A stretch of DNA of 64,000 nucleotides. Origin: Gigantopelta aegis (Eukaryota > Mollusca > Gastropoda > Neomphalida > Peltospiridae). Below, in pieces: positions 23,834-64,000 of the stretch (positions are counted from its first letter, which is position 1; the number at the start of each line of letters is the position of its first letter). Location of the stretch: NCBI RefSeq assembly GCF_016097555.1, contig NC_054706.1, positions 26,885,029-26,949,028 on the forward strand, given 5' to 3'. Position numbers and translations under genes: made by a program. The notes below the pieces were generated by a model. The model was not told where the DNA came from. It made no database searches and saw only the letters and a program-made list of their open reading frames with translations.

Positions 23834-24011
23834 TCCTGCAATCTGAGACTATGTCACTCTTGTTGACCAAAACCCAACATCCTTTTTAAAACAGTTTTGC
23901 AATGAGTGTGCTAATCTAATCCTTATCTGGCCAAGCCCTAAGTCTACTTCTCAAATCAATTTATACTTATCCTGTTATAAAAAGTAGTTAGAAATTGCAT
24001 TTAGATGGTGC

Positions 24012-24408
24012 TACGTTTGTCGTTAGTTTTTGTTATGTTTTGTATTATTGGTTTAGTTAGCACCTGAAAGGTACCATGTTTGTCTGAGCTGTGAACACTG
24101 CTGTGTTAGGTGATAGGGATTTTCTGGATATTAATTTATGGGATAAGGATAGATTTAATTTATAATTAAAACTCGAGTATTAGTAATTTAGGGGAGTGGT
24201 TGTATTTTAATAGCTAAAATCAACCTAATTCGTTATAATTGTATGTGTCTGTTATTTTGTGGTAATTGTAAATAAACGTTGATGTTGTAGGTAATAATTA
24301 GTTATCATTATAGTAAACAGCTACCTTGAAAGCCAGATCAGATATATCGAATCTGTGCACCTAATTAACGGCATGTTCCAGAATTTAAGGGCGCCCGTTA
24401 CAAATATA
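24012..24408 (+). mobile_element. LTR fragment of the element at 39761-43482
   Basis: Matches the 3' portion of both LTRs of that element and ends GGGCGCCCGTTACA. It lacks the 5' part of the LTR. It marks the left end of duplicated block A. Confidence 0.8.
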
Positions 24409-24879
24409 CATGCCCAGATAATATAATAAGGAATTTAACTAAACATTAACAGAATAAAATGGAGTTACAGCATTTTGTCCCTCCGCAAAAATCCAAAGTT
24501 GTAAAAAACAACAACACAACAACAACACAAACCCTCGGCCATCCACGATAACCAAATTTAGTGTTCGAGATTTTGGACTACCTGATTTGTGAGTTCTGTG
24601 ATTTTAGATGGGACAGTCAACTTAATCAGTAGTATTACAGAATTATTTACAGTAATTTTCCCCAGAAATATCATAACATGGGTCATAATCCACTGCCTGC
24701 TAATAACACAATACCCACATTTTCTCCATACCATTAAACAAAGATTAATATTAGGAGATGCCACGACGCTTCAGATTGGTGAAAAAAAGCATCACAATAC
24801 CCTGTGATGTTAGTAACACCGGTACAATTGCCGCAAAACAGAAATCACAGGTCGGGGCAACTAAACGAAAGGCCAAGAA

Positions 24880-26081
24880 AAGAAAGAAGTGTTTTATTTA
24901 AAGCCGCACACCCTAGTTCCATCCAGCGAAAATAAATTATAATTTGGTTAATCTACAAACCTGTAACACACTTAGATCACGTTTTTATCAAATGGAATGA
25001 AAAAGCAGGTTTTATATCGATAAATACCATGGGAATCCCCATGTCCCAATTGCTTGAAATAATTTTGAAAGTTTGTATTCTGATGTCACCGGTAGATGTC
25101 GCTCGAAGCACAACAATGCCTACGTCACGACAAATTTCACAGACTTGGGGTGCGTTCTTTTCACCTCTCCTGGACATGTTCCAACTGTTCTGTCCTGGTT
25201 GTATCCCCTCTCCAGATATCGTAGGACTTAGCAAAATTATTGGTTTTAAGGGTTTGTAACGTTTTGTATTGAGATACTTGCTTGTCTGAACTTTATTGTT
25301 ACTGAAAATGTTCACGAACTGTGAAGAAAAATCTCACAAATGAACAACAACAAATCGGATGTTGATTGCGCGAACCGTGCACGAGAAAACAAACCGAACC
25401 AAAATGATAACGGTCACGTGGTATACCAACGTCTGTGACATTGAAATGGAAATATCCCGTCTAAAAATAGATTAGACCTTGTCTGCTCAACGTTTTTTTC
25501 TCAAACGTGCGTCCGTTTTTCAGAAATGCGAAAAATGCATTTTGTGGTATTACAAACACCAGGATTACCAAAAAACACTTCAGGTGAATGGAAATGTATA
25601 TTCTAAATAATAAACGGTAAGTAAAGTGCAATTTTATTTGTGAAAAAATGGGTTTAATAGCGAAAAACAACGCCGTAATGGTTAACAACTAGCCGTAACT
25701 AGGGTGTGTCCCTTTAACGACGCACTCAACACATTTTATTTACGGTTATATGGCGTCAGACATATGGTTAATGACCACACAGATTTTGAGAGGAAACCCG
25801 CTGTCGCCACTCTATGGGCTACTCTTTCCGATTAGCAGAAAGTGCTCTTTTATTTGCGCTTCCCACAGGCAGGATAGCACAAACCATGGTCTTTGAACCA
25901 GTTATGGATCACTGGTCGGTGCAAGTGGTTTACACATACCCACTGAGCCTTGCGGAGCACTCACTCAGGGTTTGGAGTCGGTATCTCGATTAAAAATTCC
26001 ATGCCTCGACTGGGATCCGAACCCAGTACCTACCAGCCTGTAGACCGATGGCCTAACCACGACGCCACCGAGGCCGGTACG
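24880..26081 (-). mobile_element. SINE (type 2) split by a TTAA MITE
   Basis: The SINE tail begins at about 24885 (GAAGTGTTTTATTTAA), is interrupted by the MITE at 24898-25717, and resumes CGACGCACTCAACAC at 25718. It runs to the head ACCGAGGCCGG (minus-strand start near 26081). Copy B lacks it. The flanks AACGAAAGGCCAA and TACGAATAGACCAA look like a diverged target duplication. Confidence 0.85.
24898..25717. mobile_element. TTAA-flanked MITE nested in a SINE tail
   Basis: TTAA lies at 24898-24901 and 25714-25717. Inside them, AGCCGCACACCCTAGTT on the left matches AGGGACACACCCTAGTT read from the right. TTAA duplications are the hallmark of piggyBac-type transposition. There is no coding capacity. 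An internal 60-bp stretch (about 25149-25205) matches the left end of the MITE at 52108. Confidence 0.85.
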
Positions 26082-26149
26082 AATAGACCAATGAACTAAC
26101 TAAACAGTAATTTTATCATTTCAGGTTACCGCTGTTTCACGGACAAATG

Positions 26150-26265
26150 ATGATACTATATACCAATGGGCTCTGGGTGGGAGCCGATACTGGGCTACGA
26201 ACCATGTACCTACCAGCCTTATGTCCAACGGCTCAACCACGACGCCACCGAGGCTGGATTCATCA
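26150..26265 (-). mobile_element. SINE head fragment, shared by both duplicated blocks
   Basis: Contains CCACGACGCCACCGAGGCTGG and GGGCTACGAACCATGTACC. The same fragment is at about 48640-48745 in copy B, so it predates the duplication. Confidence 0.7.
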
Positions 26266-26318
26266 TTCAACGCAAAAATCAACGGACTGATACGGTACTT
26301 TTTTCTGTTCTGAAACTA

Positions 26319-27027
26319 AAGTACTAATCAAAATTATACCCAGGTGATGTTCCAGTCTTATATATTATTTATGAAAATCTCTGGAATAAAAACCATAAAA
26401 ATGTGTCAGTATTATTATAACCTGTTATGGTATTCAAATAACCGGTACAAAAAAATGACAATAAATCACCTATTACAGATAGAAATATGAGATGTATTTA
26501 CAATTTTGCTGCAAAACATATGTAATTTGAAACGGACTATAACACCCAGGTCGATATTGATTAAACCTGACAGGTGAAATCACAAGTACTAAGTGTAAGA
26601 ATACATAGCAGTCCAGCATATTAAATCAAATAACTAAAATAATTATATAAATTTGCTAACAACAAAATGACTTCTGTTGTATCCATATAATCAATGTGCT
26701 AATAAATAATTTGTTCAAATCTTAATCTGACAAAGCAGTATATTGAACTTATGTATTGGAAAGGACAGGTGTATTATTTCTGCTATCAATATCAAGCTGG
26801 GTGTTATAGTCTGTTTCAAATTACATATCTTTTGCAGTAAAATTGTAAATACATCTCATATTTCTATCTATAACAGGTCATTTATAGTAATTTTTTGTAC
26901 CGGTTGTTTTGAATACCGTAACAGGTCATGATAATACTGACATATTTTTATGGTTTTTATTCCAGGGATTTTCATAAATAATATATAAGACTGGAAAATC
27001 ACCTGAGTATAATTTTGATTAGTACTT
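26319..27027. mobile_element. Foldback element, long inverted repeats, TA target duplication
   Basis: Starts AAGTACTAATCAAAATT and ends in its complement. The arms are about 245 bp each (26319-26563 and 26785-27027) with small differences. TA flanks both sides, and copy B shows the intact empty site (GAAACTAATCCCTGATG) at 48798. It has no ORF, so it depends on a transposase encoded elsewhere. It is related to the element at 56190-57202. Confidence 0.9.
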
Positions 27028-27647
27028 TAATCCCTGATGTAGCGCGTTAACTATTACGTAACTACTTGCTCACCAGAGGGCGGATTCAGTGAGATGGATC
27101 AAAATGGCTGCGCCCGTTTTATATAAGTACCGTCACATTTGAACCGTATTATTAATTAATATACCAATATATATGTTGATATTAAGCAATAATGTGCATT
27201 AAATATCGTTGATTATGCATAACAGTCCTAGGGTCTTCCCCAATCATCCCATTAATACAGCAAAGTAAGAGAAGACAACCACTGGTGAAGAGTTCTCTCG
27301 TCTTTTTCACTCTGTCTTGTACTGAAATAAAGGTAAACAATAGTATATGTTGACACCAGAGTGCATTGTTTGATCATTGACTATTAGCTACATTAGCCAC
27401 AAGAAGTTAAGGGCCAGCAACAGCAACGGTAACAACAACAATAAAAACAACAGCAACAATAACGACTGAAACACTACTTACCTTTACGTGAAACGTCAGG
27501 TTAAAGACACACTAGTGAAAACGTGGAGAGGAAAACAAGAGACAACGTGTTCTATCGATTATATGGAAATACAACTCAGACACCTATGCAACGTTTGATT
27601 TTAAAATATACTGTGAAGTGTTTCAAGTGTATATATATATATATATA

Positions 27648-35684: not shown

Positions 35685-36367
35685 CATAGATATTAACGCA
35701 CTAGCACAGGGGATAATTAAATCCTTTCTGGCCTCACAAATTGTTCCATGCCATTGCTGGGACTCGAACCTGTGGCACCGAATCGCCCACAAATTGCTAG
35801 ACTAACCACGATGCGCTCTGAGCTATCGAGGCATCCATAAAAAGGATGTTCTTTAACTCAACCACATGCATGGGGCCTACAATCTACGCGGTCGATCCCG
35901 CTTATGTGCACGAAAAAGTGGGCAGACCTGGCACTTGCTAGTATGTATTGATGTATGAATATCTATATATTGTATGTATGTCGAGGTTGACTGTTACATA
36001 CATAGATATTAACGCACTGGCACAGGGGATAATTAAATCCTTTCTGGCCTCACAAATTGTCCCATGCTGTTGCTGGGATTCGAACCGGTGGCACCGAATG
36101 GCTCGCAAATTGCGAGACTAACCACGATGCGCTCTGAGCTATCGAGGCATCCATAAACAGGATGCTCTTTAACTCATCCACATGCATGGGGCCTACAATC
36201 TACGCGGTCGATCCCGCTTACGTGCACGAAACAGTGGGCAGACCTGGCACTGGCTAGTATGTATTGATGTGTGAATATCTATATATTGTATGTTTGTCGA
36301 GGTTGACTGTTACATACATAGATATTAACGCACTGGCACAGGGGATAACTAAATCCTTTCTGGCCTC
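35685..36367. repeat. Tandem 318-bp repeat, about 2.2 copies, each with a tRNA-like module
   Basis: Copies start at about 35685, 36003 and 36320 (partial), at TAGATATTAACGCACT. On the minus strand each contains GATAGCTCAGAGCGCATCGT (A-box-like) and GGTTCGAGTCCC or GGTTCGAATCCC (a consensus B box) about 45 nt later. The spacing and missing cloverleaf arms rule out a working tRNA. It is best read as a tRNA-derived SINE head captured in a tandem unit. Confidence 0.8.
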
Positions 36368-42700: not shown

Positions 42701-43482
42701 AATCTGGCTTATAGACTGCAAATATTATATATTTGTTTTTTTAAGGTGAGGGAGGGCGAATATAGTGAAAACGGATTTAGGTTGTATCAAAAATAGGTTG
42801 AGTTAAATTTTTTAATAATTAAAATTTTATTATATGGGACAGTTTTGTTTATTTGGAAATAATTTGGGTATGGAAATTGGGTATATATATATTTTGTAAT
42901 TGGTATATAATAATTTGGGTATTAACTGAGCTTTGATTTAGTTATTATTATTATTATTATTATTATTATGTTAAGGATAAATTATTTAAGAGGGTCATGT
43001 TGAGAAGTCCTGAGTTGACTATGTTAACTAAAATTACTAAAGTAATTTGGCTTACTTGGAGATAGCAAACGGTATGCCTACCTGTTAAATAGAATATGTT
43101 CTTCGTTTGTCGTTAGTTTTTGTTATGTTTTGTATTATTGGTATTATTGGTTTAGTTAGCATCTGAAAGGTACCATGTTTGTCTGAGCTGTGAACACTGC
43201 TGGATATTAATTTATGGGATAAGGATAGATTTAATTTATAATTAAAACTCGAGTGAGTATTAGTAATTTAGGGGAGTGGTTGTATTTTAATAGCTAAAAT
43301 CAACCTAATTCGTTATAATTGTATGTGTCTGTTATTTTGTGGTAATTGTAAATAAACGTTGATGTTGTAGGTAATAATTAGTTATCATTATAGTAAACAG
43401 CTACCTTGAAAGCCAGATCAGATATATCGAATCTGTACACCTAATTAACGGCATGTTCCAGAATTTACGGGCGCCCGTTACA
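39761..43482 (+). mobile_element. LTR retrotransposon fossil, short and non-autonomous
   Basis: Two direct LTRs: 39761-40445 and 42757-43482. Just inside the 5' LTR is GGGGGCTCGTTCGGGAT (about 40449-40465), which resembles a proline-tRNA primer-binding site. A purine tract (AAGGTGAGGGAGGG, about 42742) precedes the 3' LTR. The internal part is only about 2.3 kb, with a short open frame near the 5' end (40512-40811) and no recognisable gag, protease or polymerase. It is broken or always was non-coding. A foldback MITE lies inside it at 40993-41522. The LTRs differ noticeably, so it is old. Superfamily uncertain (Gypsy-like at most). Confidence 0.75.
40993..41522. mobile_element. Foldback MITE, same family as 52998-53609, nested in the LTR element
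   Basis: Left arm CAATCTAATTAAAATGAGAT and right arm AGCTAATTTTAATCTGATTG are complementary at the ends. The internal blocks TCTCGCCCGATATTTTTTGA and ATTTGTATGCTCC match the other copy. Confidence 0.7.
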
Positions 43483-43859
43483 CATGTACATGCCCAGATA
43501 ATATAATAAGGAATTTAACTAAACATTAACAGAATTACAGCATTTTCCCCTCTGCAAAAATCCAAAGTTTAAAAAACAACAACAAAAACCCTCGACAATC
43601 CACGATAACCAAGTGATAATTTTATTTTGTTTTGGACTACCTGATTTGTCAGTTTTGTGATTTTAGATGGGGCAGTCAACTTAATCAACAGTATTACAGA
43701 ATTATTTACAGTAATTTCCCCCAGAAATATGATAACAAGGGTCATAATCCACTGCCTGCTAATAACACAATACCCACATTTTCTCCATACCATTAAACAA
43801 AGACTAATATTAGGAGATGCTACGACGCTTCAGACTGGTGGGGAAAAAATGCATCACAA

Positions 43860-43997
43860 TAGAGGGTTCCCGGCTCCGACGGATTACCCACAGTGCCTTA
43901 CGGTCGGCCATATTGGTAGGCAGCTGAGCGTATCGTGATCTTTTTATCGTCATTGTTTACAAGCTATTGTCCGGTTTCATTTCTTTATCTGAACATA
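43860..43997 (+). promoter_or_regulatory. Left end and presumptive promoter of the transposase gene
   Basis: 138-bp leader between the insertion point and the transposase ATG. It contains GGATTACCCACAGTGCCTTA, which resembles the ZNF143/THAP11 promoter motif family (CCCACAATGC), followed by GGCCATATTGG, a YY1-like GCCAT word. The motif readings are by eye. The region must serve as both transposon end and promoter. Confidence 0.4.
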
Positions 43998-45926
43998 ATG
44001 CCTACAACGTGTGCCATTGTTGATTGTAATTCACGGTGCGGAAAAGATAACAGTAGGTTTTATCGACTGCCTAAAGTCCTAATTCACCAGGGTGAAGATA
44101 CTAAAGAGAGAAGTGAGCGAAGGAAGAGGTCTTGGCTTGCAGCCATAAATCGTCAGGAATTGACAAAGAAAGCTGTGGAAAATTGTAGAGTTTGTTCCAG
44201 GCATTTTATTAGTGGTACGTTTTTATGTTTTTAATAACTGAATAATCATTATAATGCGCATTCGTGTGTCACTGGGGGTGGGGTGAAACAAGCAGGTTAT
44301 TTTTAAAGCCACACACACCACCTCTACAACCAATTTAAATATTGACAATTTTCTGTAGGGGCCTAGAGATTATTTAATTTTTTGATAAATAAAAAATTGT
44401 TTTAAGCTGGAATTAACTGTGTGTGTGTGGACAGACTTGTATATTTTCCAATACATAATGTATGAGTATATGTTAATTCAGTATTTGTTGTGTGATCAAA
44501 CATATACCAAGCTATTAATAACCGTAAAACATATTTAAGAGCAAATATACATGTATGCATGTTAGGAATATTTGGAAGTCTTACTGGAAAGATTTCCCCA
44601 CATACATGTACATATATTTATCAGTCTCTCATATTATGTCTTTTCTTTTTTTTAGGAAAGCCATCAACTTTGTATGATGAAACCAACCCAGATTGGGTGC
44701 CTTCTTTAAACCTGGGTTACAAGCAGTGTACCTCAACTGATCCGGGCCAAAGATACAGTAGGTTACAAAACCGAAAAGAAACCAAACAGACTAGGGCAGC
44801 TGCTTTAACTCTTTTGGATCTGAACGCGTTATTTGAAGAGTGGGGAGCTGTTTCCGATACAGATACCGAACCTGAGGTAGATAACGAAACTGAGGATGCC
44901 CATATGTCTGACCCTGAAAAGCTTAGAGTAGCAATAGCAGAAATTGTGGTGCTTAAGGAGGAAAATGAAAAACTGCACGAGGAAATTAAAACTTTAGAGA
45001 AAGTGGTATTTAAATTGAAGTCCCATAAACCAGAAGATTTCGAAAATGATGATGACAAGGTCAAGTATTATACTGGCTTGTCCAGTTTTGTCACACTCAT
45101 GGCTTTGTTTGATTTGCTAAAAACAGAAATAACAGAAAATAAGCTTTCTTTGTTGACAAGATTCCAAAAATGTATTATAACACTGATGCGGCTTCGACTA
45201 AATCTTTCCATCACTGATCTGAGTTACCGGTTTGGTGTGTCAAATTCTACCATATCGAAGGTGTTTCTGGCTACTGTCAGTGTGATGTATGAAAGGCTCC
45301 TGCCACTAGTGCGTTGGCCAGACAGAGACGAGCTTCATGACACCATGCCAATGGGGTTTAGAAAATATTTTGGACGTAAAGTAACTGTAATTATTGACTG
45401 TTTTGAGCTCTTTATTGACAGACCATCCAATATGACAGCTCGAGCGCAGACATGGTCAAACTATAAACATCATAACACAGCAAAATATCTCATTGGGATT
45501 ACACTGCAAGGAACTGTTAGTTTTATTTCAGAAGGATGGGGTGGAAGAGTGAGCGACAAACATTTGACGCCTAATTGCGACTTTCTGTCAAATTTGATTT
45601 ATGGGGATGTCATTTTAGCTGACCGAGGTTTCGAGATTCAGGAAATGGTAGCTGTGTACGGAGCTGAGGTGCGATATCCAGCTTTTATGAGAGGGAAATC
45701 CCAACTGACCGCATCTGAAGTGGAATCCACAAGGAAAATTGCAAATGTGAGGATTCATGTAGAGCGAGTAATTGGCTGTGTGCGACAAAAATTAACCATT
45801 CTTGGAGGGACATGCCCCATTGACCATCTGATTTCAAAAGAAAATTCAAAACCACTTTTAGATAAAGTTGTTTTTGTTTGTTGTGCACTTACAAATATGT
45901 GCCCATCAGTTGTGCCATTTGAATGA
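43998..45926 (+). CDS. THAP-domain DDE transposase (two exons)
   Basis: Exon 1 43998-44214 and exon 2 44656-45926 join through GT/AG signals (GTGGTACGT donor, TTTTTTTAG acceptor) into 495 codons. The splice completes the THAP zinc finger: CAIVDC, then CRVCSRHF, then ISGKPS...[10 protein letters not shown]. Residues about 161-195 form a coiled coil. An HTH follows ([20 protein letters not shown]). The DDE core has VIIDCFEL (Asp 320), [10 protein letters not shown] (Asp 395) and [14 protein letters not shown] (Glu 442). It cuts and pastes the element in the nucleus. No stop or frameshift is seen, so it looks intact. A hammerhead ribozyme begins 85 nt after the stop. Confidence 0.9.
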
Positions 45927-46010
45927 CAGCAAACAATATATATTTTTACAGAACAGCAGCCATGAAGGACTTGAGACATGTAACAAAAATAATTTCAAAA
46001 CTCCAAACCC

Positions 46011-46119
46011 AACATGTCTGCAGTTTATTACTTTTTCCATCTGTTGAGATTTTTTTTCTCACAGGAAACTGTAGTAACCCAAGCTGCACTGACGAGCCCT
46101 GGGTTGGGCGAAACATGTT
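46011..46119 (+). ncRNA. Hammerhead ribozyme in the transposase 3' UTR
   Basis: All conserved parts are present in order. Stem III 5' strand AACATGT (46011-46017) is followed by C at 46018 as the cleavage nucleotide (GUC). Stem I is TGCAGTTT (46019-46026) pairing with AAGCTGCA (46081-46088, one wobble), with an extended arm between (TTTCC with GGAAA, TTAC with GTAA). The core is CTGACGA (46089-46095). Stem II is GCCC/GGGC with loop TGGGTT (46096-46109). GAAA follows, then stem III 3' strand ACATGTT (46113-46119), 7 bp perfect. The open helix is stem III, as in type III hammerheads. Predicted cut is between 46018 and 46019. Confidence 0.9.
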
Positions 46120-46766
46120 ACCATGTTATTTTTTGTATCAAAAAGTAGATTGTGCCTCAAATCTTGAAACTAATGTATAAAACATATTACAGCCGAATAA
46201 TTTAATACATGTATTGAGAAATTCAGTAACATGCTTGGTGGATGTTACAAATTAGTTTGCTATATTTGATTAGTTTTGTCAATATCAGCTTTCCTTTTAT
46301 AGTTGCCAATCGTCAAGCTGTCAGTATTTGTAATTACATGTTGCTGGTCAATTTGTACCGGATTTGGTCATTTTGAAAAACCATGGTCATTCCGTACTTC
46401 ATTTAGTACTATAAAATAAATAAATCTACAAATAATGCAAACACCTTTGCAATATTTATAAACAGTTTTTGCTTTGCTAACCATTTAACACTCATGTTTT
46501 TTGACGTTGCAGTATTGCATATTCTAATCTTTATTACTGTTATTGTCACACTCAAATGTTTCTTGTGTTTTCACTGAACATTCATATTTAATAATTTATT
46601 TAAGACTTCAAATACCTTTGACCGAAGTGAAATATGGTACTTACAACTATGATGTTGCGTCTTTAATGGTGAGATTTATATACAGTGTAGATGTACTTGT
46701 GATTTGAAAGGTGGTGTATGTGTGACTGTTTTAGCAAATACAAAAAATTTGCTTTAAAATTTGTTT
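46120..46766. other. Spacer between the two ribozymes
   Basis: AT-rich, no ORF of note and no further structure recognised. The cleavage points lie 819 bp apart, so fully cleaved transcripts of the two genes would not overlap. Confidence 0.6.
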
Positions 46767-46844
46767 ACACGTTTCGCCCTCCCAGGGCTCATCAGTGCAG
46801 CTAGGGTTCCTTATCATTTCTGACAAGAAAACTGCAGACGTGTT
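46767..46844 (-). ncRNA. Hammerhead ribozyme in the YqaJ-PHD 3' UTR
   Basis: Read on the minus strand from 46844. Stem III 5' strand is ACACGT (46843-46838), then cleavage C at 46837. Stem I TGCAG (46836-46832) pairs with CTGCA (46800-46796). The core is CTGATGA (46795-46789). Stem II is GCCC/GGGC with loop TGGGA (46788-46776), then GAAA (46775-46772), and stem III 3' strand ACGTGT (46772-46767), 6 bp. Relative to the plus-strand ribozyme, stem III carries a compensated change (U-A there, C-G here). Similarity to that copy stops at the ribozyme edges. It begins 185 nt after the YqaJ-PHD stop. Confidence 0.9.
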
Positions 46845-47028
46845 GTTGAGCTCTATTCCATTTAATAATTGAAGTTCATGGAAACAATTTGTATATTCAA
46901 GCTTACAAGTTCCTTGCTGTTGATTTCACTGGACAAACATGATGAAAATCACAACCCAGTAATAAAAATGCATACAGGTTAAATAAAAGTTAATTATATG
47001 CACATGTATGTCTTTCTGAAGTTAAGGA

Positions 47029-48474
47029 TTATTTCCTTCTCTTTATCTTAGAAGTTTTAATATTGTTTACAGCTTCTTTCTCCACACAATCCAAACAATA
47101 CCATTTTCCTACCGGTTCTTTCTTCAACTTCATGCAGGAAAAATGAAACCACATGAATGGCTTGTGGGGACAATCTGCCGAGTCGCAAGCTATCATTTTG
47201 GAATCGCTGCTTGAATTGTTGCAGATGCAGTACAGTGTTGCATCATCATCGGAACTATCATGTCCTGTTGAAATGACCATTTTATCCACAGGAATTGCTG
47301 AGGTATGATCACTACAATGGGGGTCCACTTGACCGAGCGTACTGGTATATGATGGGGATTCCACTTTATTTTTTTCTAACACACAGCTTTTTTTGACACT
47401 TTTCTTTCCTTCCCTGTTTTATAGATTTGGACTTTGCTGCAGTAAGGCTGACCTGATTAGTGGAATCAGTCAGTGGTGTGGTCTTCTTACTGAACAGAGA
47501 TGACTGACTAGCTCCGGAAGTATTACTGTTGTAAAAAACTTGGTCGATTTTAAAGTAATTTGTTCCCAAAGTTCAGGGCAGGGCTCAATCCTCTCCATAA
47601 ACAAATCATCTGTGGTCCACACTATAAAGTCACAATACTCCAAATTGCAAACATGCAGTTGAGATTGCACCTGATAAAAATAAGGATGATTTCGCTTCAA
47701 CCGAAGAGCCCCATCAATCGTTTCTAAGCATGAATTCTTCCCAGCACGTACATTTTCATCCTTCATGCAATATGGACATTTAATTTCAATGCATCCCTTA
47801 CCACATTCAACAAGACCATCTGGGGAAGCACCCAAATGGGGATAACATGCACTTAAAAAAAGCCCACAATCACTGATGTTGACATTTTGATGAAGGGTAC
47901 TAATTTGATTCAAGTAACTTTCTCTTGCTGTTAGCTCATGTTGACATCCCCACCTAGTTGCTGCAGATGAAAATGTTGCTTCTGTTGGGTAGCATATTGA
48001 CTTCAGCAAGCTCAGTGAAGGATTGCTACAAGACGTCGAACATACTGCTTTCATTTTTGAAGCTGTAACACGCCCAGTCCTAAATCTAAACCACATTTTT
48101 GACGTTGACTGTTCTCTAGTTGCAAGCTCCACATTGACAATTTCTTCATCAGTGACAGCAAGTTCCTTAAACACGCTTTCGCAGTGACTGAAAATCTTGA
48201 TTGTGGATTCATTGTGCAAATTTTCATCATACAATTCGCTTAATATCATGGGGTATTTAATGTCAAGAACTTTTGGAATATAAATGCTGTTGTAGTTTCT
48301 GTTTACAGACAGACATGCTGGTTTTTCACTTGAAATCTTGTTAAAAAAGGTCTCCCACTGTGAAGTTGATGCCTTTTCCACAGGTTTCGTCGAACGAATG
48401 GGGGTATCCGAGATTTGTGTTTCAGGATGGTCAATTTGTCGATCCAGTCGTTTCTTGAGACTTTTCGAAGACAT
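47029..48474 (-). CDS. YqaJ-type nuclease with C-terminal PHD finger
   Basis: From M at 48474 (MSSKSLKKRLDRQ) an open frame runs to 47470. It holds a YqaJ/lambda-exonuclease-like domain: FRTGRVTASKM, then ATRWGCQHELTARESY, LSACYPHLGASPDGLV and CIEIKCPY, with Asp in SPDG and Glu-x-Lys as expected catalytic residues. A donor-like CAGTAAGA near 47499 and AG acceptors near 47400-47430 suggest a short intron. The next exon encodes an ING-like PHD finger (LYCICNN ... WFHFSCMKL ... WYCLDC) and ends KTSKIKRRK at 47029. PHD fingers of this type read histone H3 tails, which may guide target choice (inference). The N-terminus looks short for the family. Confidence 0.78.
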
Positions 48475-49159
48475 AAAATTTATATTTTTCAATGGGGCAT
48501 GTGATGTTAATAACACCGGTACAATGGCCGCAAAACAGAAATCACTGATGGGGCAACTTAAAGAATACACCAATTAACTAACTAAACGGTAATTTTATCA
48601 TTTCACTTTACCGCTGTTTCACGGACAAATGATGATAATACCAATGGGCTCTGGGTGGGAGCCGATACTGGGCTACGAACCATGTACCTACCAGCCGTAT
48701 GCCCAACGGCTCAACCACGACGCCACCGAGGCTGGTTTCATCATTCAACGCAAAAATCAACAGACTGAAACGGTACTTTTTTCTGTTCTGAAACTAATCC
48801 CTGATGTAGCGCGTTAACTATTACGTAACTACCGGCTCACCAGAGGGCGGATTCAGTGAGATGGAACAAAATGGCTGCGCCCGTTTTATATAAGAAACGT
48901 CACATTTGAACCGTATTATTAATTGATATACCAATATATGTGTTGATATTAACGAATAATGTGCATTAAATATTGTTGATTATGCATACCAGGGTCTTCC
49001 CCAATGATCCCTTTAATACAGCAAAGTAAGAGAAGACAACCGCAGGTGAAGAGTTCTCTCATCTTTTTCACTCTGTCTTGTACTGAAATAAAGGTAAACA
49101 GTACTATATGTTGACACCAGAGTGCATTGTTTGATCATCGACTATTAGCTACATTAGTC

Positions 49160-49407
49160 ACAAGAAGTTAAGGGCCAACAACAACAATAACAACAACAAT
49201 AATAAAAACAACAGCAACAACAACAACAACATCAACAACAATAAAAGCAACAGCAATAAAATAGCAACCACAACAACAGCAACAACAACAACAAAAACAC
49301 CAGAAGCAACAAAAAACAGCAACAAAAATAACAATAATAACAACAACAGCAACAACAATAAAAACAACAGCAACGATACCAACAAAAACAACAGCTACAA
49401 CAAGAAC

Positions 49408-49439
<32 letters not shown>

Positions 49440-49480
49440 CAACAACAATAAATACAACAACAACAATAACGACTGAAACA
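49160..49480. repeat. (AAC)n/(AAT)n microsatellite, expanded in copy B
   Basis: About 300 bp of AAC, AAT and AGC triplets, against about 60 bp at the matching position in copy A (27415-27475). The Leu-rich minus-strand frame here is an artefact. Confidence 0.9.
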
Positions 49481-49709
49481 CTACTTACCTTTATGCGAAA
49501 AGTCAGGTTAAAGACACACTAGTGAAAACGTGGAGAGGAAAACAAGAGGCTGTTAGAAACAATGCACCACCCTATTTCATTGCTCCACTATATATGGAGA
49601 CGTGTTCTATCGATTATATGGAAATACGACAACTCAAACACATGACAACTCAAACACATGTGCAACATTTGATTTTAAAATATTCAGTGAGGTGTTTCAA
49701 GTATGTATT

Positions 49710-59487: not shown

Positions 59488-59787
59488 TTTGTGTATGTAC
59501 GTTGCTAGACCACCTATTATTGGGTGGCGTATTTTCAAAATCGAATATTTTTAGGAACAACAACCCTTTTGTTGACATTTGTATCCTATTTTGGGGTTTG
59601 ACCGGATACATATAGTAGTAACTGCAAAGTTAACGTTGGGACGAATCACATTGTTGCTCAGACAATTTGTCCTGTCAGTGACATGCATACTCACTGTCAA
59701 GAGAAGGAAAATGGGAATGATACAAATTTGTTTCCACAATTCTTACTAAAACATCAACCATTGTCTATTTATCATAGAGAAGTTGGT
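59488..59787. other. No feature seen
   Basis: Noncoding sequence between the SINE and the satellite. Confidence 0.5.
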
Positions 59788-60945
59788 ATTAATGATATGG
59801 CCTGTATGATGCAATATTACTTCTATTGCTTGGCATTATAGACATGGCCTGTATGATGCAATATTGCGTCTATTGGTCGGCATTATAGACATGACCTGTA
59901 CGATGCAATATTACATCTATTGGTTGGCATTATTGACATGGCCGGTATCATGCAATATTACTTCTATTGGTTGGCATTATAGATATGGCCTGTATGATAC
60001 AATATTACTTCTATTGGCTAGTATTAAAGACATGACCTGTATGATGCAATATTACTTCTATTGATTAGTATTAAAGACATGGCCTCTACGATGCAATATT
60101 ACTTCTATAGGTTGGCATTATAGACATGGCTTGTATGATGCAATATTACTTCTATGGGTTGGCATTAAAGACATAGCCTGTACGATGCAATATTACTTCT
60201 ATAGGTTGGCATTATAGACATGGCCTGTATGATGCAATATTACTTCTATAGGTTGACATTATAGACATGGCCTGTATGATGCAATATTACTATTGGTTGG
60301 CATTATAGACATGGCCTGTATGATGCAATATTACTTCTATCTGTTGGCATTATAGACATGGCCTGTACGATGCAATATTACTTCTATCTGTTGGCATTAT
60401 AGACATGGCCTGTACGATGCAATATTACTTCTGTTGGTTGACATTATAGACATGGCCTGTACGATGCAATATTACTTCTTTTGGTTGGCATTATAGACAT
60501 GGCCTGTAAGATGCAATATTACTTCTACAGGTTGGCATTATAGACATGGCCTGTACGATGCAATATTACTTCTGTTGGTTGACATTATAGACATGGCCTG
60601 TACGATGCAATATTACTTCTTTTGGTTGGCATTATAGACATGGCCTGTAAGATGCAATATTACTTCTACAGGTTGGCATTATAGACATGGCCTATATGAT
60701 GCATTATTACTTCTATTGGTTGGCATTATAGACATGGCCTGTATGATGCAATATTACTTCTATAGGTTGGCATTATAGACATGGCCTATATGATGCAATA
60801 TTACTTCGATAGGTTGGCATTATAGACAGCCTATATGATGCAATATTACTTCTGTTGGTTGGCATTATAGACATGACCTGTATGTTGCAATAGTACTTCT
60901 ATTGGTTGGCATTATAGACAGCCTATATGATGCAATAGACAATAG
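59788..60945. repeat. Satellite, 47-bp monomer, about 24 copies
   Basis: Monomer of the form GACATGGCCTGTATGATGCA, ATATTACTTCTATTGGTTGG, CATTATA. Variation is ordered in places: a three-monomer block of 141 bp at 60401-60541 is repeated almost exactly at 60542-60682, showing recent block duplication. The last copies are shortened. It lies 3' of the sperm H1/protamine-like gene. Confidence 0.95.
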
Positions 60946-61365
60946 ACAAGATTAATGATCAAAACATGCAACATGAATTACTTCACAGATAGCCTGGATT
61001 AACAGTCACTACACTATTAACTCTACAACAGCAACTCACCAGTAAATTAATGAAATTCCTGGCAACTCAGTTCAGGGACTTCATGGAATCCCTGAATAGT
61101 TTATTGATTACATGAAACCCCTGACCAACACAGGGTTTTCATTAAATTACTGAAATCTTCAGGGTTTCACGAAATCCCTAGTTTAACAATCTTACTGTAA
61201 CACATACACAAATTACCTTGTTAATAATAATAAAAAGTAGCAAATTTCCCCTCCTTCATCCCGTTATTCTTTTCTTTTCTTTTTTGTTGTTTTTTGTTTT
61301 GTTTTTGTGATACAAGACGAATTGATGTAAAAGGAGACAATAAAACCTCATTCAAGTGGTTTGGT
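60946..61365. other. Downstream region of the sperm protein gene
   Basis: No gene. On the minus strand, A-rich and purine-rich sequence (about 61262-61310, CAAAACAAAAAACAAC...) lies downstream of the histone stem-loop. A histone downstream element complementary to U7 snRNA would be expected within about 20 nt of the stem-loop, but I cannot point to a convincing one. Confidence 0.4.
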
Positions 61366-61381
61366 GGCCCTGAAAAGGGCC
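61366..61381 (-). promoter_or_regulatory. Histone-type mRNA 3' stem-loop
   Basis: On the minus strand GGCCCTTTTCAGGGCC: a perfect 6-bp stem with loop UUUC, followed by ACCA as in replication-dependent histone mRNAs and preceded by AACC. It lies 25 nt after the stop codon of the gene at 61407. In histone mRNAs this element binds SLBP and directs cleavage without polyadenylation. Confidence 0.92.
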
Positions 61382-61406
61382 GGTTGAATAGTTAGTGATT
61401 TGATAT

Positions 61407-64000
61407 TTATTTTCTTAGCCACGATTTGCTTTCATTTTTTTTGTTGGCCTCTTCCTCGCTTTTCTTGACCTCTTCCTTGCTTTTCTTGACCTCTTCCTCG
61501 CCTTTCTTGACCTCTTCCTCTTCCCCGCCTTTCTTACCCTCTTCCTCGCCTTTCTTACCCTCTTCCTCGCCTTTCTTACCCTCTTCCTCCTCGCTTTTGC
61601 ACTCGCACTTGCAAAGTAATTTCTTTGTTTGTTTGGATTCTTTGGATTGCTTGGATGCCTTGGGTTTTTTGGATGCCTTGGATTTTTTGGATCCCTTGGA
61701 TTTTTTGGATCCCTTGGATGTTTTGGATCCCTTGGATGTTTTGGATCCCTTAGATTTTTTGGATCCCTTAGACAATGAACGTCGTCGACGCTTTGGTTGA
61801 ACTGCTTCATCATCTTTGAGTGCTTTGGATGGACGCTTTGGTTGAACTGCTTTTTTGTCGCGTGTTGATCGTGGTTTTCGACTTCTCGATCGACTTCTCG
61901 ATGCACCTTTTGATGAACTACGCTTTTGCTTTCGAAGTCGCGATCGACTTCTTGATGCACCTTTTGATGCTCCACTTCTTGCTGCACCTTTTGACGAACT
62001 ACGCTTTCCTTTTCGACGTCGTGATCCACTTCTCGATGCACCTTTTGGTGCTCCACTGCTCGCCACACCTTTCAATGAAGTACGCTTTCGTTTTGGACGT
62101 CGTGATCCACTTCTCGATGCACCTTTCGATGAAGTGCGCTTTCGTTTTGGACGTCGTGATCCACTTCTCGATGCACCTTTCGATGAAGTACGCTTTTGTT
62201 TTGGACGTTGAGATCCACTTCCCGATGCACCTTTTGATACTTCACTGCTCGCCGCACCTTTCGATGAACTAGGCTTTCGTTTTCGACGTCGCGATCCACT
62301 TCTCGATGCATGTTTTTGTGCTCCAATGCTTGTGGAACCTTTTGATGAACTACGCTTTCCTTTTCGACGCCGTGATCCACTTCTCGATGCACCTTTTGGT
62401 GCTCCACTGCTCGCACCTTTCGATGAAGTACGCTTTCCTTTTCGACGCCGTGATCCACTTCTCGATGCTCCACTGCTCGCTGCACGTTTTGATGAACTTG
62501 GCTTTCGTTTTCTACGTCGCAATCCACTTCTCGATGCACCTTTTGGTGCTCCACTGCTCGCTGCACCTTTCGATGAACTACGCTTTCCTTTTCGACGCCG
62601 TGATACACTTCTCGATGCACCTTTTGGTGCTCCACTGCTCGCTGCACGTTTTGATGAACTTGGCTTTCGTTTTCGACGTCGCGATCCACTTCTCGATGCA
62701 CCTTTTGGTGCTCCACTACTCGCCTCACCTTTCGATGAACCACGCTTTCCTTTTCGACGTCGTGATCCACTTCTCGATGCACCTTTTGGTGCTCCACTGC
62801 TCGCACCTTTCGATGAAGTACGCTTTCCTTTTCGACGCCGTGATCCACTTCTCGATGCTCCACTGCTCGCTGCACGTTTTGATGAACTTGGCTTTCGTTT
62901 TTGACGTCGCGATCCACTTCTCGATGCACCTTTTGGTGCTCCACTGCTCGCTGCACCTTTCGATGAACTACGCTTTCCTTTTCGACGCCGTGATCCACTT
63001 CTCGATGCACCTTTTGGTGCTCCACTGCTCGCTGCACGTTTTGATGAACTTGGCTTTCGTTTTCGACGTCGTGATCCACTTCTCGATGCACCTTTTGGTG
63101 CCCCACTGCTCGCTGCACGCTTCGATGAACTACGACGTCTGGACCGGCTTCTAGATTTTGATCCTAGTGATTTACTCCGCGATCTACCTTTTGGTGCACG
63201 TTTTGATGGGCGACGTGCAGACCGGCTTCTAGATTTAGATGCCTGCGATTTACCTTTTGGTGCACGTCGGGATTGGCTTCTTCTAGACTTGGTGTGTCGT
63301 TTTGATCGACTACCTTTTGATCGGCTAAATTTCGAAGAACCACGTTTAGAATGACTACGTCGTGATGGAGATCTAGGTCGGGATCCTTTTCCAGACCGAG
63401 ATCTGCTACGTCCTTTTCCTTTTCGGCTGCTAGATCTACTTCTTCGACGCGCACCTTTTCCACCTTTACTACCTCGTCCACCTTTTTTACCTTTACTACC
63501 TCGTCCACCATTTTTACCTTTACCACCTTGTCCACCTTTTTTACCTTTACCACCTTTTTTACCTTTACTGCCTTGTCTACGTGGACCACAATGAGGTTCC
63601 TTTTCTTTAACCCAAAAACCAAGACGGTATCGACCAGTGACACCAGTGGTTTTTGTACCTTTAGGTCGAATCAAAATTCCGTGTTTCAGACCTTTCCCGA
63701 GAGCTGACCTAATTTGTCCTTTCAGCAGTTGTGGAGGAACATTTGCCATGCTGGTAGTGGCAATATATTTTCGAATTGCCTGAGCAGATGTTCCCTTTTC
63801 ATCCTTGATGGTGTTGATGGCATCCACAATTTTCAGGATCATGGACGACGGAGCCTTCATTCGTGGGGGTGTTTGTTTACCACTGCTAGTAAATTCAACA
63901 CCGACATTTGGGGCTCCATCAACGGGTGTTCCGCATCTAGACGTGGAGTTCGATTGAGAAGACCCGGACTGGGACGTTTTAGACCTAGACCGGGAGCTAG
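61407..64000 (-). CDS. Sperm-specific linker-histone/protamine-like protein (PL-I type), 5' end outside window
   Basis: Compacts sperm DNA. The frame is open to the window edge. At least 46 codons of Ser/Arg/Thr-rich tail (SSRSRSKTSQSGSSQSNSTS) precede the Met at 63860, so that Met is probably internal. From it, residues about 3-82 form an H1 winged-helix domain (ILKIVDAINTIKDEKGTSAQ, GKGLKHGILIRPKGTKTTG, RYRLGF). A KGKKGG-repeat region is followed by an SR-rich part. Then about 15-20 copies of a roughly 26-residue unit (SSKRAASSGAPKGASRSGSR type) run to about residue 660. A SKGSKK run and a tail of EEEGKKG repeats with CKCECK complete it. There are no introns. It is longer than described PL-I proteins. 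A histone stem-loop follows. Confidence 0.9.
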   Translation of the reverse strand, partial: SSRSRSKTSQSGSSQSNSTSRCGTPVDGAPNVGVEFTSSGKQTPPRMKAPSSMILKIVDAINTIKDEKGTSAQAIRKYIATTSMANVPPQLLKGQIRSALGKGLKHGILIRPKGTKTTGVTGRYRLGFWVKEKEPHCGPRRQGSKGKKGGKGKKGGQGGKGKNGGRGSKGKKGGRGSKGGKGARRRSRSSSRKGKGRSRSRSGKGSRPRSPSRRSHSKRGSSKFSRSKGSRSKRHTKSRRSQSRRAPKGKSQASKSRSRSARRPSKRAPKGRSRSKSLGSKSRSRSRRRSSSKRAASSGAPKGASRSGSRRRKRKPSSSKRAASSGAPKGASRSGSRRRKGKRSSSKGAASSGAPKGASRSGSRRQKRKPSSSKRAASSGASRSGSRRRKGKRTSSKGASSGAPKGASRSGSRRRKGKRGSSKGEASSGAPKGASRSGSRRRKRKPSSSKRAASSGAPKGASRSVSRRRKGKRSSSKGAASSGAPKGASRSGLRRRKRKPSSSKRAASSGASRSGSRRRKGKRTSSKGASSGAPKGASRSGSRRRKGKRSSSKGSTSIGAQKHASRSGSRRRKRKPSSSKGAASSEVSKGASGSGSQRPKQKRTSSKGASRSGSRRPKRKRTSSKGASRSGSRRPKRKRTSLKGVASSGAPKGASRSGSRRRKGKRSSSKGAARSGASKGASRSRSRLRKQKRSSSKGASRSRSRSRKPRSTRDKKAVQPKRPSKALKDDEAVQPKRRRRSLSKGSKKSKGSKTSKGSKTSKGSKKSKGSKKSKASKKPKASKQSKESKQTKKLLCKCECKSEEEEGKKGEEEGKKGEEEGKKGGEEEEVKKGEEEVKKSKEEVKKSEEEANKKNESKSWLRK

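Follow-up and report, generated by a model that had tools for sequence, protein, structure and literature searches.

ISL2EU transposons, one group of the PHIS elements (PIF/Harbinger, ISL2EU, Spy), have been described as having an AT target-site duplication, terminal inverted repeats and two genes, one encoding a transposase with THAP, helix-turn-helix (HTH) and DDE domains and the other a YqaJ protein (PMC4482050; this and the papers below are cited for the accessible portions of their text). A term search of two papers on the group, PMC4482050 among them, did not find the word ribozyme. Here we describe an ISL2EU element in a 64-kb stretch of the genome of the deep-sea snail Gigantopelta aegis, a gastropod of the Peltospiridae (the window, meaning the whole stretch analysed), in which the gene for a THAP-DDE transposase and a convergent YqaJ-PHD gene are each followed by their own hammerhead ribozyme. 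The element shares with the described group the transposase and YqaJ gene, the AT duplication and the terminal inverted repeats, and differs from it in the hammerhead present within the 3' untranslated region (UTR) of each gene.

Hammerhead cleavage yields products with a 2',3'-cyclic phosphate and a 5'-hydroxyl (5'-OH) end (PMC7936874), and animal hammerheads have been described as mostly of type I and tied to retroelements (PMC7761336, PMC7229834). Mobile elements with hammerheads also include retrozymes, Penelope-like elements and Terminons, but these are retroelements, whose motifs in animals are of type I and sit in terminal or tandem repeats (PMC7761336, PMC7229834), whereas the snail element is a DDE DNA transposon with a single type III motif per gene, on opposite strands. 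The extended type III hammerheads of hepatitis delta virus (HDV)-like RNAs, termites, dipterans and Drosophila pseudoobscura have a long helix I with an internal loop, a pseudoknot to loop II and an open stem III (PMC7936874, PMC3088659), and the ribozymes of three of the snail families described below (families 1-3) follow the same plan. The genomic type III copies of termites were reported as isolated motifs with no recognisable open reading frames (ORFs) within 2 kb (PMC7936874), in contrast to the snail hammerheads, which are attached to transposon genes. A precedent for the 3' UTR position is the discontinuous type III hammerhead of mammalian Clec2 genes, which likewise has a very long helix I (PMC6155905); however, Clec2 is a host gene, whereas in the snail the ribozymes belong to the two genes of a mobile element, each gene having its own on its own strand. 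The earlier note on this DNA, made from the letters alone, had stated that no hammerhead was known to its author from a cut-and-paste DNA transposon. In agreement with this, we found no such report among the matches listed in the open-licence literature, a coverage that leaves subscription papers and bioRxiv preprints mostly outside, nor in the accessible portions of PMC6431247, PMC8490949, PMC12477314 and PMC9179366. As far as the accessible literature goes, natural hammerheads of eukaryotic mobile elements are otherwise tied to retroelements and RNA replicons, and their position here at the ends of DNA transposon genes provides a testable setting for the role of animal hammerheads outside retroelements, and for how a cut-and-paste element may limit its own transposase.

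Two hammerheads between two convergent genes

Both ribozymes of the window (Table 1) have a CUGANGA and GAAA core, an RUH cut site and three helices with stem III open, and as such are type III hammerheads. In the plus-strand ribozyme stem III is AACAUGU/ACAUGUU, the predicted cut falls between GUC and the U at 46019, and the core CUGACGA is followed by stem II (GCCC/GGGC) and GAAA. The minus-strand ribozyme has the stem III ACACGU/ACGUGU, a predicted cut between GUC and the U at 46836, the core CUGAUGA, and again GCCC/GGGC and GAAA. For both, the minimum-free-energy structure is the hammerhead fold (z -3.3 and -3.6), with a long helix I bearing a 5-nt bulge on its 3' side. A descriptor scan of the 64 kb returned no full motif other than these two, and 120 Markov strands yielded none. 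The type III model of Rfam, RF00008, has a curated cut-off of 48.5 bits and matches the minus-strand ribozyme at 40.4 bits (E 4.8e-7) and the plus-strand ribozyme at 22.0 bits (E 0.081), so that a scan at the cut-off lists neither; the score reaches up to 45.3 bits in family 3, also below the cut-off. The long helix I is the likely reason for these low scores, which may in turn explain why such hammerheads were overlooked. The earlier note had proposed complete hammerheads at these positions, each sense to and just downstream of the gene that ends beside it, and two convergent transposon genes so equipped in an ISL2EU element. Descriptor, fold and the sub-cut-off Rfam match agree on the ribozymes, the distances agree with the gene ends at 45926 (transposase) and 47029 (YqaJ-PHD), and Pfam confirms the genes.

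Table 1. Features of the ISL2EU element and its surroundings, in window coordinates
Feature	Position	Strand	Basis or remark
ISL2EU element remnant	43861..48498		Left end complete; right end missing about 750 bp relative to full-length L018, L022 and L027
AT target-site duplication, left copy	43859..43860		AT followed by AGAGGG at the left end, shared by the window copy and 7 of 8 further copies listed
Left terminal inverted repeat AGAGGGTTCCCGGC	43861..43874	+	Comparison of copies
Transposase exon 1, THAP domain	43998..44214	+	Splice predicted from GT-AG and frame; Pfam THAP E 2e-9
Transposase exon 2, HTH_Tnp_4 and DDE_Tnp_4, through stop codon	44656..45926	+	ORF list; Pfam DDE_Tnp_4 E 4.8e-48, HTH_Tnp_4 E 5.4e-15
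Type III hammerhead, transposase 3' UTR	46011..46119	+	Predicted cut between 46018 and 46019
First AATAAA signals, transposase gene (46415 and 46419)	46415..46424	+	Downstream of its ribozyme
First AATAAA, YqaJ-PHD gene	46595..46600	-	Downstream of its ribozyme; ATTAAA at 46866 upstream of the ribozyme
Type III hammerhead, YqaJ-PHD 3' UTR	46767..46844	-	Predicted cut between 46837 and 46836
PHD finger portion of second gene	47029..47382	-	ORF and Pfam
YqaJ exonuclease portion of second gene	47470..48474	-	ORF and Pfam, YqaJ E 5e-20
Paralogous segment without element, CATCACAATACCCTGTGATG	24790..24809		Site at 24799/24803; not a clean AT-only empty site

The assignment to ISL2EU is borne out by the full-length relatives L018, L022 and L027, which are about 5.2-5.3 kb long and have 14-bp terminal repeats AGAGGGTTCYCGGC with AT on both sides; the right end of L018, L021, L022 and L027 reads AGAGGGTTCTCGGC on the other strand. 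The window copy retains the left AT and left repeat and lacks the right 750 bp or so, including the right terminal repeat, which corrects the earlier note. A reading of 43862-48499 as the true element ends was rejected, because other copies extend about 750 bp further right. A second correction concerns the YqaJ and PHD parts, which are separated by two in-frame stops in the genomic frame; a short GT-AG intron, for example 47490-47404, could take out both. In related copies, too, an ORF with a YqaJ domain is the convergent neighbour of the transposase. The best protein match of the window transposase is a 97% identical transposase of Gigantopelta aegis, and the bivalve Sinanodonta woodiana has the same two gene types under the neighbouring locus tags ACJMK2_023143 and _023144, so that the two-gene unit is not peculiar to this snail. 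The window also contains a duplicated segment (24008-24869 and 26081-27634 against 43098-43861 and 48500-49708), mostly 88-95% identical and aligning in pieces, of which one copy has the ISL2EU insertion and the other is without it.

HDV-like RNAs are known to have ribozymes of both polarities and to show the extended type III architecture (PMC7936874), and the pair might in principle belong to a foreign element nested between the two genes, either a retrozyme, a Penelope-like element or a viroid-like or HDV-like circular RNA. We regard this as extremely improbable. The 636 nt between the ribozymes (46125-46760) do not show the rod-like self-pairing of an HDV-like or viroid-like RNA (z +0.65) and hold no ORF of 100 residues, and in four families the ribozymes have the same placement relative to the gene ends. 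Nor does the locus resemble a retrozyme or Penelope-like element: there is one motif per strand, with no other full motif in the 64 kb, and the genes encode DDE and YqaJ-PHD proteins.

Recurrence and divergence of the ribozymes in one genome

Recurrence was surveyed in a single genome, the 1.149-Gb assembly of Gigantopelta aegis, where the window lies at C8:26885029-26949028 and in which we distinguish family 1, to which the window copy belongs, family 2 at 70-74% transposase identity, and families 3 and 4 at 47-59% identity. All 16 transposase loci of at least 70% identity that reach query residue 410 (12 of family 1 and 4 of family 2) are followed within 200 bp by sequence that matches the transposase-side ribozyme in sense orientation, the match being partial at C9:68745925 and C1:11016455. 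These 16 loci and the 40 flanks considered below provide the unbiased counts; L016-L035 were selected by DNA match to the transposase-side ribozyme, which is therefore present in them by construction. By descriptor, every one of the 12 family-1 loci selected in this way, the window included, has at least one complete ribozyme, the transposase-side copy being complete in 10, the YqaJ-side copy in 7 and both in 5. Several of the eight fetched family-2 loci are deletion derivatives; at least one complete ribozyme is found in six of the eight, and both in one, L031. Three convergent pairs of exact cores of the family-2 type are present in the genome, at C2:12251154/12252118, C3:15930234/15931127 (L031) and C10:62981246/62982111.

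More distant elements were sampled as 40 3' flanks, picked by transposase alone from 106 matches as those that reach near the C-terminus, with the weaker matches (mostly under 41% identity) excluded. A strict hammerhead is present in nine of the 40 flanks, which fall into family 3 (L040, L041, L042, L043, L047, L072) and family 4 (L037, L045, L055), and a degenerate one in L057; the nine contain 15 strict motifs, against one in 1,600 Markov flanks. Genome-wide there are 87 exact cores (69 of families 1 and 2, 12 of family 3 and 6 of family 4), and reversed core patterns gave no match. As many as 78 of the 87 are sense to, and at most 1.5 kb downstream of, a transposase or PHD match, and a further six lie within 6 kb of an ISL2EU match; of the three without any ISL2EU gene match within 6 kb, as opposed to 84 with one, C12:16124313 is 0.6 kb from an opposite-strand match to the transposase-side ribozyme. 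The earlier note had allowed that the pair would be a chance insertion if related elements all lacked it. Instead the same placement recurs in three further families of the same genome. Because the pairing recurs in such distantly related elements, in families whose transposases have only about half of their residues in common, the two hammerheads look like a conserved part of the element rather than an accident.

Between the window and the family-2 element L032 (transposase DNA 73% identical), the aligned blocks are the two exons, 46008-46120 and the ribozyme-core blocks; between the genes only the two ribozyme regions align, and 46008-46120 coincides with the transposase-side ribozyme to within 3 bases. 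The family-2 element L035 gives a corresponding block, 46009-46120. When the eight ribozymes of the four families, one for each gene, are compared, 12 of the 16 helix positions that they share differ in pair type. Only this variation is informative, since each helix was followed no further than its strands pair and pairing itself is therefore true by construction. Helices were read by descriptor, as MAFFT misplaced the 5' strands in the eight-ribozyme alignment, and pair counts from two sequences had no power (235 of 500 shuffles were as high). Complementarity between the helix I bulge and loop II is seen in families 1-3, where the two change together, the pairs being CCC:GGG in families 1 and 2, UCC:GGA in family 3 and AACCCA:UGGGUU in the + copy of the window. 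The minimum-free-energy structure is the hammerhead fold for both ribozymes of family 1, the YqaJ-side ribozyme of family 2 and both of family 3. Family 4 ribozymes are compact, and no pseudoknot between bulge and loop II was seen in them. As neither of them has the hammerhead as its minimum-free-energy fold, this family may have gained its ribozymes independently or be a less strong example. In the family-3 element L041 the opposite-strand ribozymes (380-454 and 1170-1246) are near-identical, as if from an inverted duplication or conversion, and the family-1 pair differs more.

Predicted cleavage and its possible role

We think it probable, though by some distance short of certain, that several ISL2EU transposons of Gigantopelta aegis carry a built-in, old type III hammerhead in the 3' UTR of each of their convergent genes, and that cleavage holds the output of transposase and YqaJ-PHD protein low. 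The transcript of each gene would be cut by its own ribozyme after the stop codon and ahead of the poly(A) signal, so that the coding part would lose its tail and the downstream part would begin with a 5'-OH end. Translation of both proteins would then be limited to mRNA that has not yet been cleaved or escapes cleavage altogether, and the element would thereby keep its own output low. Export, translation and stability are generally poor for mRNA that lacks a tail, and throttling is therefore our first choice of mechanism. Loss of the poly(A) tail and limited output through self-cleavage, both suggested in the earlier note, are plausible; that the RNA would cleave, that it would do so in cells, and that throttling would be the benefit are predictions from the sequence, whereas the presence, position, orientation, core, pairing and recurrence of the ribozymes are observed. 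The positions of poly(A) signals are consistent with these predictions. Among the transposase 3' UTRs examined from the four families (the stop position for family 3 being taken from the flank design), the stretch from stop codon to ribozyme is free of AATAAA and the first such signal is downstream of the ribozyme, so that cleavage would usually detach the tail.

The presence of the motif at the same place on both genes in four families, with canonical poly(A) signals mostly further downstream, would also suit a positive role in 3'-end maturation, in which defined tail-less ends keep the RNA nuclear or free expression from host polyadenylation. We consider such a role unlikely. Judging from the fold, the mRNA-side product would end in the released strand of stem III, with no obvious protecting structure, and AATAAA signals are present in all four families. 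A further proposal of the earlier note, that the cuts keep convergent transcripts from overlapping as double-stranded RNA, has in its favour the convergence of the genes and cut points about 818 bp apart. It is not supported by the positions of the poly(A) signals: the transcripts of families 1, 3 and 4 would be separated in any case by the first AATAAA that follows each ribozyme, and ribozyme-less L036 has signals that predict overlap, the other four ribozyme-less copies listed being less clear. A cut alone, moreover, does not stop the polymerase, and avoidance of double-stranded RNA is thus very unlikely to be the role of the ribozymes.

Several observations weigh against hammerheads maintained to throttle both genes. 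On the YqaJ side, the alignment of the window with L035 is a 66% block (46766-47237) that extends from the ribozyme across the 3' UTR and into the PHD exon, and conservation there is not confined to the ribozyme, as the 3' UTR of L035 still aligns. The minimum-free-energy folds of both family-4 ribozymes are not hammerheads, and that of the transposase-side ribozyme of family 2 deviates at the cut site. Family 3 has ATTAAA between stop codon and ribozyme in both genes, family 1 has it there in the YqaJ-PHD gene, and family 4 has an AATAAA close to the end of YqaJ, so that some tailing upstream of the cut is possible. Ribozymes of family 1 are not significantly less diverged than intergenic DNA (19/1,810 against 142/8,661 sites, p 0.07), a slight difference such as is expected from young copies drifting neutrally. 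The 40 distant flanks form 13 clusters by DNA similarity, two of them with ribozymes, and in the other 11 no hammerhead was found by descriptor or Rfam, the absence being tentative for the singletons L052, L054 and L071, in whose flanks no YqaJ end was found; ISL2EU elements can therefore do without hammerheads. In clusters such as that of L036 the YqaJ-PHD end lies inside the flank and the intergenic stretch is covered. Descriptor, pattern and Rfam searches cover known ribozyme shapes, in the ribozyme-less families as elsewhere. The distribution over clusters and the near-neutral divergence among recent family-1 copies would both be in agreement with ribozymes that arrived with an old insertion or duplication and have since been carried without function. 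We judge this quite improbable, as core and helices have been kept while the surrounding spacer diverged beyond alignment, with compensatory changes, and on both genes.

Family 2 provides the remaining difficulties. Five of its eight fetched loci have CUGGYGA rather than CUGAUGA in the transposase-side core, and its deletion derivatives retain the YqaJ-side core in many copies despite broken genes, so that persistence of the ribozyme in these derivatives needs no throttling function. Such retention in derivatives without genes, together with the presence of ribozymes on both strands in families 1 to 4, could be taken to favour insulation from host transcripts, whereby one ribozyme per strand would cut read-through from either side inside the element. 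This seems improbable to us, because the transposase-side core is the one mutated in those five loci, and coverage of both strands is as such often not kept in derivatives. The derivatives L028-L030, L033 and L034 consist of transposase and PHD remnants and share an A-to-G core change in the transposase-side ribozyme.

Transposase relationships, origin and other observations

The distribution of the ribozymes can be compared with a transposase tree of 31 rows, in which six snail rows are labelled by ribozyme state. Families 1 and 2 form a clade (99/98), with rows from Haliotis, Patella and pipefishes nearby and with the row P0003 adjoining family 2. Rows from Mytilus, Priapulus and Ylistrum join family 4 (100/99), the branch of family 3 is deep and its placement not resolved, and families 5 and 6, which have no ribozyme, cluster with three rows from bivalves (98/96). 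The ribozyme-bearing snail families thus occupy well-separated parts of the tree, surrounded by sequences from fish, bivalves, priapulids and other animals. One gain or loss suffices for the six labelled snail rows. We offer as a tentative possibility, doubtful at present, that the pairing of 3' UTR hammerheads is an ancient means of control in ISL2EU elements across animals, gained once and lost in some clades, and that the orphan extended type III hammerheads of insects, perhaps also those of HDV-like agents, derive from such DNA transposons. Elements of this kind would be a possible home for the orphan type III hammerheads of invertebrate genomes.

Searches of viral contigs with a single protein or an alignment found no relatives of the transposase. 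One viral contig in IMG/VR, L001, has within a 724-base stretch a type I-like hammerhead, recognised by eye at 601-652, that shares the core CUGAUGAGCCCUGGG, and this was taken as convergence. Neither L001 nor six viral matches to a shorter core pattern had an Rfam match at the curated cut-offs. A possible match of the HDV type in L063 (28.3 bits against a cut-off of 44, E 0.15) overlaps the YqaJ part and is not listed for the other eight members of the L063 cluster; it was dropped as chance.

Elsewhere in the window, an 817-residue ORF at 61407-63860 on the minus strand encodes a linker-histone domain (Pfam E 5.5e-14) and, after it, a long tail of K/R/S repeats. Just beyond the stop codon of this ORF lies a histone 3' stem-loop (61340-61386, minus strand; Rfam RF00032, 36.2 bits); we take the ORF to resemble a protamine-like H1 gene. 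Tandem arrays occupy 1-1459, 59782-60937 and 35685-36367, with units of 129, 47 and 316 bp, respectively.

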